In this document: positions 44,505 to 47,340 of the stretch, one piece after another
How positions within the stretch are numbered: position 1 is the first letter of the stretch
Layout: every line of letters starts with the position of its first letter
From: Pseudomonadota bacterium
GTDB taxonomy: Bacteria; Pseudomonadota; Gammaproteobacteria; Burkholderiales; Sulfuricellaceae
DNA length: 64,000 bases
Direction: 5' to 3'
Assembly (NCBI GenBank): GCA_021801705.1
Contig: JAJYXP010000046.1
Span: forward strand, 1 to 64,000
Translations under genes and position numbers: made by a program
Notes under the pieces: generated by a model
The model's database searches: none
What the model was told of the DNA's origin: nothing
Seen by the model: the letters and a program-made list of their open reading frames with translations, nothing else

Positions 44505-44568
44505 AAAAATTTCCGCAAAAATTCGTAGTTTACCCGATTATCCGGCCAGGGGAAACGCACAGAGCCTA

Positions 44569-46392
44569 TTAATCTGCTTCGCGCTCAATGGAGCAGCACT
44601 GTCTTTCGGCAGCGCCTCCTTCGGAAAGCAAGACCTCTCCAGTAAACGGGTTGGGGCGGAAAACGGTGCAGCCTTTCAGGCCCTTGGCATAAGCGTTTTC
44701 GTAGATTGAACGGAACGCGTCGAAACTGTAATCGCGCGGCACATTGATGGTTTTGGAAATGGCGTTGTCAACGTGCTGCTGCAATGCCGCCTGCATTTCG
44801 AGATGCGCCTCCGGCGGAATTTCCCGGGCGCGGACAAAGGTGTCCGGCAGCGCCGCATCCTCACCATGCCGCAAGCGGAACTGACGAAAAGCATAATCAC
44901 CCACGCTGACCGTATTGAAACTGCCGTCCGCCTCACGAATGCGGCGTTCGTACTCGAAATCGAAGATCGGCTCCAGACCGCTGGAAACATTGTTTGCCAG
45001 CAGACTGACCGTGCCGGTTGGCGCGATTGCGGTTAAATGGCTGTTGCGTATGCCATAGCGTGCAATCCCTTGCACAATATCCTCGGGCAGAGTACGGATA
45101 AACTCGCCTGACAGATACTTGCCGGCGACAAATCCAGGAAACGCGCCTTTTTCCCGTGCCAGTTCGATCGAGGCCCGGTAGGCGCTGTGGCTAATTTCCT
45201 GCATTATCTTCCCGCCCAAATCAAAAGATTCCGTACTGCCATAACGGATGCCCAGCATCGCAAGGGCATCGGCCAGCCCGGTCAGACCAAGGCCGATCCG
45301 CCGTGAGGCGCACGCGGTTTGCGCCTGCTTTTCCAAAGGGAAGAGGGAAAGATCGTAGACATTGTCGAGCAGGCGCACAGCCGTTTCCGCGGCGACTCGA
45401 ATTCCTTCCAGGTCCAGTGCTGCGCTGGAGGTGAAAGGCGCATGGATGAATTGGGTCAGGTTGATCGCACCCAGGTTGCAGGCTCCATAGCAGGGCAGCG
45501 GAATTTCACCGCAGGGATTGGTAGCGCTGATCCGTTCGCAGTACCATAAATTATTCATGCGGTTAACACGGTCGATGAAGAGCACGCCGGGTTCGGCATA
45601 CTCATAGGCTGCTCGCATGATCTTGTCCCACAACACCCGCGCACTGATCCGGCGCACTACCTTGCAGCGGCGAGAAACGCTGCCGCCCGACCACAACCGC
45701 TCGACCACCTTACCCACCGCCAGTTCATTATCGGCCAGAGGGAACACCAACGGCCATTCCGCATCCTCCTTAACCGCTTGCATGAAGTCGTCGGTCACCA
45801 GCACCGACAGATTGAAGTGACGCAGAACCTGCGGATCGCGCTTGGCCACGATGAAAACCTCGATATCCGGGTGGTCGCAGCGCAACGTCGCCATCATCGC
45901 GCCGCGGCGTGCCCCGGTGGATAGGATCGTGGCACACATGCTGTCCCAGATGTGCATGAATGAGACCGGGCCGGAAGCGGTGGCGCCTACCCCATGCGCC
46001 AGTTCGCCGCTCGGACGCAGGGTGGAAAAATCATAACCCACGCCCCCGCCCTGCTGCATGGTCAGCGCGCCTTCCTTCAGCGCCTCGAATATGCCATCCA
46101 GAGAATCCTCGATTGACCCCATGACAAAGCAGTTGAACAAGGTTACTCGACGGGATGCACCCGCGCCGGCAAGGATGCGTCCTCCCGGCAGGAAGCGGAA
46201 CCCTTCCAGGATTTCGTAAAATCGCCGCTCCCAGGCATCCTGGTCTCGCGGCTCCACCCCGGCGAGCGCACGGGAAACACGGCGCCACGTATCTTCCACG
46301 GCCTGATCGACAGGCCTGCCTGCTTTGCGGTAACGGTAACGGATATCCCAGATGCGGAAAGAAATATCCGAGAGAAAATGTCCCTCGATCAT
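44569..46392 (-). CDS. nrdJ: Adenosylcobalamin-dependent (class II) ribonucleotide reductase
   Basis: Makes deoxyribonucleotides without oxygen. 607 residues, single chain. Catalytic core: FNCFVMGSIEDS, GGGVGYDFSTLRP, NPCGEIPLPCYGACNLGAINL (N-x-CGE) and APTGTVSLLANNVSSGLEP. The C-terminal redox Cys pair is RQCCSIERE. Lacks the N-terminal ATP cone, as in the shorter class II enzymes. Start ATG 46392 behind AGAGG. The hairpin terminator ends only about 13 bases before the start. This enzyme lets the cell grow under low oxygen if cobalamin is available. Confidence 0.95.
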   Translation of the reverse strand: MIEGHFLSDISFRIWDIRYRYRKAGRPVDQAVEDTWRRVSRALAGVEPRDQDAWERRFYEILEGFRFLPGGRILAGAGASRRVTLFNCFVMGSIEDSLDGIFEALKEGALTMQQGGGVGYDFSTLRPSGELAHGVGATASGPVSFMHIWDSMCATILSTGARRGAMMATLRCDHPDIEVFIVAKRDPQVLRHFNLSVLVTDDFMQAVKEDAEWPLVFPLADNELAVGKVVERLWSGGSVSRRCKVVRRISARVLWDKIMRAAYEYAEPGVLFIDRVNRMNNLWYCERISATNPCGEIPLPCYGACNLGAINLTQFIHAPFTSSAALDLEGIRVAAETAVRLLDNVYDLSLFPLEKQAQTACASRRIGLGLTGLADALAMLGIRYGSTESFDLGGKIMQEISHSAYRASIELAREKGAFPGFVAGKYLSGEFIRTLPEDIVQGIARYGIRNSHLTAIAPTGTVSLLANNVSSGLEPIFDFEYERRIREADGSFNTVSVGDYAFRQFRLRHGEDAALPDTFVRAREIPPEAHLEMQAALQQHVDNAISKTINVPRDYSFDAFRSIYENAYAKGLKGCTVFRPNPFTGEVLLSEGGAAERQCCSIEREAD

Positions 46393-46404
46393 CCGGAGCC
46401 TCTA

Positions 46405-46487
46405 GAAAATAAAAAGCGAGGCGCTGCCTTGCAGCCCTCGCTGATTTAACCCCTCATCGGGTTAAGAGCCTGTTTCAGTAGGTTCTT
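46405..46487 (-). promoter_or_regulatory. nrdJ leader: terminator hairpin and two more hairpins
   Basis: On the minus strand a 12-bp stem (46415-46442, one bulged base) is followed by a T-rich run that ends 13 bases before nrdJ, a Rho-independent terminator. Directly upstream lie TTAACCC/GGGTTAA (46446-46465) and AAGAGCCT/AGGTTCTT (46464-46487). Transcripts from upstream must pass it to reach nrdJ, so it may be an attenuator. No B12-box was recognised. Confidence 0.65.
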
Positions 46488-46492
46488 ATGCC

Positions 46493-46720
46493 CTACTGCT
46501 GAGATGCGTACATCCGCTCCAGGAAGGCCTCGACATCCAGCGCCGCAACGTCCGCCGGCATACCACTCGCGCGCTGCGATTGATGACGGATCAACTGTGC
46601 TGCAACTTCCGCCGCCTTGCCCTGCAGTGTTGCAATCTCAGGGTTCCAACTGGCGCACATCACCTCCGAAGTATAGCCGTTATCCATTTTGCGCGAGCAC
46701 ATATCCATTGTCACCATCAT
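46493..46720 (-). CDS. Small conserved-looking protein upstream of nrdJ
   Basis: 75 residues with a Met-rich, Cys-containing N-terminus (MMVTMDMCSRKMDNGYTSEV, MCASWNPEIATLQ) and a helical C-terminus (ALDVEAFLERMYASQQ). A perfect GGAGG sits six bases before the ATG at 46720. No family was recognised. Two Cys could bind metal. It stands between a methyltransferase and nrdJ and may be part of nrdJ control. Confidence 0.75.
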   Translation of the reverse strand: MMVTMDMCSRKMDNGYTSEVMCASWNPEIATLQGKAAEVAAQLIRHQSQRASGMPADVAALDVEAFLERMYASQQ

Positions 46721-46812
46721 GATTCACCTCCGCTTTCCCGCCTTTTTCTCTCAGGCAGCTACATTTACTATATCGGTCGTTTCGCGAAAATATAAAGAGC
46801 CCGACAAAAATA

Positions 46813-47340
46813 TTATCCAGCAACTTTGGTGGCACAAATTCGCTGCACTATGGCACGTTTTTTATATATAACGCACAATTCCTCATAAGCGTTGACTTCA
46901 AGCCTTCCTTCTGCCCATTCCAGCAACTCACCGGATTTGAGAAGATGATCCGGGTTGCGCGGCCTGCCGAGTAGTTCATTACCCTCGGAGAAGGTTTCGT
47001 AAATCAGCACCCCGCCCATCTTAAGCGCATTGAACAGACGAGCGAAAAGAGGACGGTGCAAATAATTGGTCACCACTATGCCGTCAAACGCAGCGTTGCG
47101 ATAAGGCCAAGGGCCATTTTCCAGATCTGCTCGCCGCACCGTGACGCCTGCCAAAACGGCAATGCCAGCCAACGCGCCGGCATCTCGATCCACCGCCTCG
47201 ACCTCAAACCCAGCCTCGGCTAAGAAACGGGTATGGCGGCCGCTTCCGCATGCAACATCCAGTATCAGCCCACCGGGGCGAATATGCGGCGCGTAGCGCA
47301 CCACCCACTCGGAAGGCTCGGAAACAAACAAGGAATCCAT
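46813..47340 (-). CDS. Class I SAM-dependent methyltransferase
   Basis: 175 residues. Motif I LILDVACGSGRHTRFLAEAG, then VEAVDRDAGAL, FDGIVVTNYLHRPLF (motif IV/V) and GGVLIYETFSEGNELLG. Substrate unknown; small tellurite-resistance-like or general methyltransferases share this shape. Its ATG overlaps the fliR stop by one base, so it is translated with the flagellar operon, though no flagellar role is known. Confidence 0.88.
   Translation of the reverse strand: MDSLFVSEPSEWVVRYAPHIRPGGLILDVACGSGRHTRFLAEAGFEVEAVDRDAGALAGIAVLAGVTVRRADLENGPWPYRNAAFDGIVVTNYLHRPLFARLFNALKMGGVLIYETFSEGNELLGRPRNPDHLLKSGELLEWAEGRLEVNAYEELCVIYKKRAIVQRICATKVAG

Follow-up and report, generated by a model that had tools for sequence, protein, structure and literature searches.

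A conserved terminator-like hairpin between a small gene and the ribonucleotide reductase gene nrdJ

The window analysed here is a stretch of 64,000 nucleotides, positions 1 to 64,000 of contig JAJYXP010000046.1. Its minus strand carries, in this order, fliP, fliQ, fliR, a methyltransferase-like gene, a 75-aa open reading frame, a hairpin with a T run, nrdJ, dapA and bamC. The genes nrdJ, dapA and the methyltransferase-like gene were named by family search; fliP, fliQ, fliR and bamC are what we take the remaining named genes to be. Judged by its TIGR02504 match, NrdJ is a class II enzyme. A second, distant reductase-type match in the same genome, a 974-aa open frame (32%, E = 2.6e-52), is probably the large subunit of a class I enzyme. 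The features relevant to the locus are as follows.

46813-47340, minus strand: methyltransferase-like gene, flanked by fliR and the small gene (PF13649, E = 2.4e-10)
46770-46796, minus strand: sigma-28 (FliA)-like box of the small gene, by eye TTTATATT-N11-ACCGATAT; scoring prefers a 10-base spacer here
46493-46720, minus strand: small conserved gene, 75 aa (open reading frame, family searches without Pfam or NCBIfam match, profile matches), its unit most likely ended by the hairpin
46476-46498, minus strand: extra hairpin 1 (CAGTAGG...CCTACTG) of the window fold, overlapping the small-gene stop codon; not conserved
46446-46465, minus strand: extra hairpin 2 (TTAACCC...GGGTTAA) of the window fold; by comparison recognisable only in the window genome (L001) and L004
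46415-46442, minus strand: putative terminator hairpin of 28 nt, with 12 pairs, a one-base bulge and a 3-base loop (sequence, fold, equivalents in related genomes)
46406-46415, minus strand: T run TTTTTATTTT of the putative terminator, its first T being also the last stem base (sequence, terminator score)
46390-46405, minus strand: nrdJ ribosome-binding region (AGAGG) and ATG (46392-46390), directly 3' of the T run
44569-46392, minus strand: nrdJ, adenosylcobalamin-dependent ribonucleotide reductase, 607 aa (TIGR02504, E = 3.9e-175, above cut-off; PF02867, PF00317)
44505-44568, minus strand: likely dapA box, GGGTAAACT-like (GATAATCGGGTAAACT in the window), between nrdJ and dapA; present in 12/12 same-genus loci and in variant forms in sister genera

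Read on the minus strand from 46442 to 46415, the hairpin is AGCGAGGGCTGC-AAG-GCAGC(G)CCTCGCT, and 13 bases (46405-46393) separate its T run from the nrdJ ATG. RNA folding gives -20.3 kcal/mol for the hairpin alone and -45.8 kcal/mol for the 121-nt leader 46390-46510 (z = -3.79; 0 of 200 shuffles equally low). Seven of the 8 bases that follow the stem are T. The terminator score is 53.4; ten shuffles in two-base blocks reached at most 9.0, and only one of them exceeded 0. The hairpin is missing from a simple terminator pattern scan, probably because of its one-base bulge, and the total of that scan (9 found, 9.9 expected) is at the level of chance. Hairpin and T run thus look like a strong intrinsic terminator of the ordinary kind, and the hairpin presumably terminates transcription in the cell. 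The first-pass annotation, which had described a terminator hairpin at this position, was correct in this respect.

All 12 same-genus genomes (our own and 11 others) carry a hairpin with a T run at the equivalent place, counted as one locus per genome; L022-L031, duplicates from a named collection, are not counted again. Energies range from -15.6 to -24.1 kcal/mol, the small-gene stop codon lies 73-100 nt from nrdJ, and 21-24 nt separate the end of the hairpin from the start of nrdJ, at whose ribosome-site position a purine-rich stretch is found in the 12 aligned genomes. The T runs hold 5 to 7 T of 8; the four of the 12 genomes with only 5 T of 8 would fit some leakage, and the T run of the window itself is strong. 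Between the window and L005 four stem pairs differ, with both partners replaced each time (from the base: GC to AT, AT to GC twice, CG to TA), so the hairpin appears to be kept as a structure; mismatches are present in the stems of L012, L013 and L018. These pairs, listed from the base, were read from individual folds and not counted by a tool, since the MAFFT alignment A2 loses the stem register (by eye in L001, L004, L006 and L007). The nearest relative, L004, has a NrdJ 95% identical to that of the window. Several named relatives at 77-79% NrdJ identity are labelled Sulfuricella and others by phylum, class or order, and the genus may best be called Sulfuricella-like.

Directly upstream of the hairpin lies a conserved small gene with a promoter-like box, which the earlier reading of this locus had left out. 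Of 250 genomes sampled from the order, 26 have profile matches to it; within the family, single-sequence searches matched 15 of 22 genomes. Searches of Pfam with seven small-gene products (E up to 1) and of NCBIfam with the window protein gave no match; one of four small proteins had a marginal PHROGs match (E = 0.08) to a family of unknown function. It is about 70-80 aa long, has conserved W, P, FL and M positions, and is encoded near fliR and/or dapA (e.g. L015, L083, L086-L092, L094). In f37 the small gene stands upstream of an open reading frame that we take to be CheV-like.

The distribution of the small gene allows its terminator to be examined where another gene follows. In the sister genus g2 (L015, L016) and in f50, dapA is next to the small gene and nrdJ is absent from the fetched stretch. 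Terminator scoring covered 31 of 39 small-gene loci, leaving aside three paralogues and five f37 loci. Nineteen of the scored loci lie outside the genus, three of them (L015-L017) in different genera of its family. Ten of the 19 have a score higher than 15 downstream of the small gene; seven of these belong to the nine loci at which dapA comes next (L015, L016, L087-L090 and L092; not L017 or L097). Shuffles scored above 15 only at L097. A hairpin test, passed at -12 kcal/mol or lower with a T run, gave 23 passes among the 39 loci, 12 of them the same-genus nrdJ loci, compared with 3.3% of shuffles; for both measures the shuffles were made in two-base blocks, 10 per locus. The passes of L083, L091 and L097 are doubtful, and L016 falls narrowly below the threshold at -11.8. 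L101 (G086, a 35-position match) stands outside these counts, and L104-L106 duplicate L019-L021.

By the hairpin test on the 39 loci, a terminator is lacking at L017 (sister genus g3), L086 (f45), L094 (f28), some f24 and f20 loci, all five f37 loci and all three same-genus paralogues. At the f45 locus nrdJ follows the small gene with no terminator between them; at the f28 locus the hairpin between small gene and nrdJ is weak (score 5.2), with a GGCGAG...CTCGCC core as in the window. Because of these loci a terminator after the small gene is to be called common and not obligatory, and the exceptions are real and limit the claim. Since seven of the nine dapA-next loci keep a terminator after the small gene, the hairpin most likely closes the small-gene unit; the best fit to the comparison is a hairpin tied to the small gene and often present whatever comes next. 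The small gene would be no dedicated nrdJ leader, as it is kept in lineages without an adjacent nrdJ. It keeps a terminator of its own in many, not all, lineages without nrdJ downstream.

The converse arrangement is found in the sister genus g3, where fliR is followed almost directly by nrdJ with no small gene between them in 5/5 fetched genomes; seven of eight g3 genomes have no small-gene match. Near-direct succession of fliR and nrdJ in related genera (L117-L121; L033, L036, L041, L054, L061) resembles a flagellar operon ending in a reductase gene. One terminator finder missed the bulged hairpin of L022, and its blanks, including those at the g3-type loci L033, L036, L041, L054 and L061, are therefore weak evidence of absence.

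The FliA (sigma-28) consensus is TAAAGTTT-N11-GCCGATAA, and the box of this genome's own flagellin gene reads TAAAGTTT-N11-TCCGATAA. All 11 same-genus upstream regions have CCGATAT at a fixed position about 50 nt ahead of the small-gene ATG; these regions match the consensus at 10 or 11 of 16 positions, with p values of 0.115 to 0.57 when taken singly. Matches outside the genus (L017, L083, L085, L086, L091, L096, L107) reach 12 to 14 of 16, each with 0 of 200 shuffles, and L083 has a clear sigma-28 site, TAAACTTT-N11-GCCGATAC, at 14 of 16. Of the 33 loci scored, from which L013, L018 and five f37 fragments with an incomplete upstream region or start were left out and to which L014, lacking its 3' end, was admitted for this scoring only, 26 have their best FliA-like site 43-52 nt ahead of the start, a count without positional control in which many loci are related. 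One of the 26, L084, has a site that does not look FliA-type; L091, L096 and L107 were measured from the start of the match instead of an ATG, which puts their distances off by a few bases. The three small-gene paralogues have no FliA-like site. The pattern CCCGATATA gave 6 matches in the whole of our own genome, at no informative places, and 9 for the reversed control; the window site falls outside these matches because it reads ACCGATATA. We infer that the small-gene promoter in this genus is FliA-like and do not put it more firmly, since its -35 element is degenerate and no same-genus region reaches significance by itself. The small gene is apparently flagella-linked, and its product is perhaps an undescribed small protein of the FliA regulon. 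A conserved small protein, often encoded near flagellar genes or dapA and with a FliA-like box in several families, is a side result of the comparison.

The transcription of nrdJ has to be considered with the hairpin in its path. Within 180 nt before nrdJ, no sigma-70-like site is better than those in shuffles in any of the 12 genomes (p 0.25-0.88), and the best sites share no position among them. Transcripts from upstream must therefore pass the hairpin, as had been stated earlier. Two promoter-like sites lie further up, at 46714-46686 (minus strand, inside the small gene) and at 46796-46767 (overlapping the FliA-like box), in a scan that found 5 sites with 3.4 expected, which is chance; the terminator would likewise stand in the way of RNA started at either. 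Given that no sigma-70-like site nearby exceeds the shuffles, nrdJ transcripts probably come from polymerases leaking past the terminator or from a promoter that escaped detection. Fixed low-level read-through is the simplest source, and an unrecognised promoter is its main rival.

Intrinsic (Rho-independent) terminators occur between genes of the same strand and include partial, leaky ones inside operons, of the rplL-rpoB type. The window resembles them in its GC-rich stem, its T run and the same-strand gene directly behind; in contrast to the rplL-rpoB type, leakiness at nrdJ is a proposal of ours. We favour, with reasonable though not high confidence, the reading in which the hairpin is the terminator of the small-gene unit, with nrdJ placed behind it and fed by leakage, a weak promoter, or both. 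Transcription of the unit would begin at the sigma-28-like promoter, some 50 nt ahead of the small-gene ATG, and would end at the hairpin, immediately behind which nrdJ begins. RNA polymerases leaking past the terminator would feed nrdJ, so that the terminator would act as a fixed valve with no sensor; a weak promoter not recognised here would be an alternative or additional source. Further down, dapA would be served by its own box, the conserved element between nrdJ and dapA being likely the dapA promoter. Within this reading the role of the terminator as a fixed valve is possible, and read-through and/or a weak promoter is what we infer for nrdJ transcription. The strict retention of the hairpin before nrdJ in 12/12 genomes could also mean that it has a role for nrdJ. 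We think it doubtful that nrdJ is fed mainly by sigma-28-type read-through from the small gene, with the terminator setting the enzyme level, or changing it conditionally, relative to the motility programme.

The hairpin had been proposed as a candidate attenuator that may sense cobalamin or nucleotide state. In the fuller form of this rival, an RNA or protein switch in the leader would choose between termination and read-through, the signal being cobalamin, nucleotides or small-gene translation. The terminator abuts nrdJ in 12/12 genomes, no separate nrdJ promoter was recognised in the 180 nt of the 12 genomes, and in the window the small-gene stop codon overlaps extra hairpin 1. The two upstream hairpins, offered earlier as alternative folds, do exist in the fold of the window; as alternative folds they fail in the comparison, since the hairpin 1 segment is absent from L004 by fold and alignment and hairpin 2 is confined to that pair of genomes. 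No conserved antiterminator was found among the same-genus genomes. When the 3' arm is cut off, pairing of the 5' arm with upstream sequence gains -1.7 to -13.0 kcal/mol, depending on genome and context length, and is always weaker than the hairpin itself (-15.6 to -24.1 kcal/mol) in a comparison made without shuffle control and without position-by-position comparison of the pairing partners. These truncated-transcript folds replaced a first set of antiterminator ddG values, discarded because the 'no-terminator' constraint had left both arms fully unpaired. A protein-dependent antiterminator would escape the fold tests used here. Rfam gave 0 matches at the gathering threshold in the 64 kb and 4 unrelated sub-threshold matches at E up to 10 in the 621 bases 46340-46960, which rejects a cobalamin or other known riboswitch at these thresholds; the earlier remark that the leader fits no recognised riboswitch stands, and the suggestion of cobalamin or nucleotide sensing finds no support. 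NrdR control of the locus was likewise rejected, as the window holds 0 NrdR-box-like sites at up to 3 mismatches from the box consensus.

With extra hairpins that are not conserved, weaker upstream pairing, ribosome-site pairing at chance level and no Rfam or NrdR match, no anatomy of a switch was found. The small gene, kept where nrdJ is not adjacent, also argues against a dedicated leader. A sensing attenuator is accordingly improbable, its positive evidence being that of position. Leader-peptide attenuators of the trp type have an open reading frame and then a terminator before a structural gene, an order that the window shares; unlike in those systems, the reading frame encodes a conserved 75-aa protein also found away from nrdJ, and conservation is lacking in the competing hairpins. 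The locus also recalls P. acnes in having a leader RNA upstream of a reductase gene; in that species cobalamin riboswitches are reported to be annotated before nrdAB and nrdDG and not before nrdRJ (PMC3848588); unlike nrdAB and nrdDG, the window has no cobalamin riboswitch match. Repression of nrdJ by cobalamin would be odd, because the enzyme itself needs cobalamin. Control through NrdR boxes is known for ribonucleotide reductase genes (PMC3848588), from which the window differs in having none. The candidate attenuator thus resolves into a more ordinary layout, a case of a switch suggested by a single genome and unsupported by comparison.

That nrdJ has its own promoter in the gap or the hairpin, the hairpin being irrelevant to most nrdJ mRNA or a protective 5' stem, is a minority possibility that we take seriously. 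An AT-rich TTTAAAAT box stands just before the hairpin in six of the 12 genomes (L005, L008, L010, L012, L013, L018), the T run of the window contains TATTTT with a poor -35, and some relatives outside the genus have, by eye, -10-like boxes near the nrdJ ATG; against this reading stand the chance-level scores and scattered places of the best sites, and transcripts begun within the T run would presumably lack most of the ribosome site. Far less probable still is control of nrdJ translation by a stem around the hairpin that masks the ribosome site: minimum-energy folds do pair at least some ribosome-site bases in 12/12 genomes, but the flanks fold no more strongly than shuffled flanks (p 0.11 to 0.85 over the 12 genomes), and masking was rejected on this ground.

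The excerpts available to us of the literature on nrdJ regulation, Sulfuricella, FliA small proteins and terminator read-through hold no description of this locus. The same-genus loci L019, L020 and L021 (genomes G003, G004 and G006) carry a further small-gene copy, divergent in sequence and 72 aa long, with no terminator and no FliA-like site; it has a strong GGAGGTG ribosome site and lies beside a gene that is presumably ABC-transporter-like.
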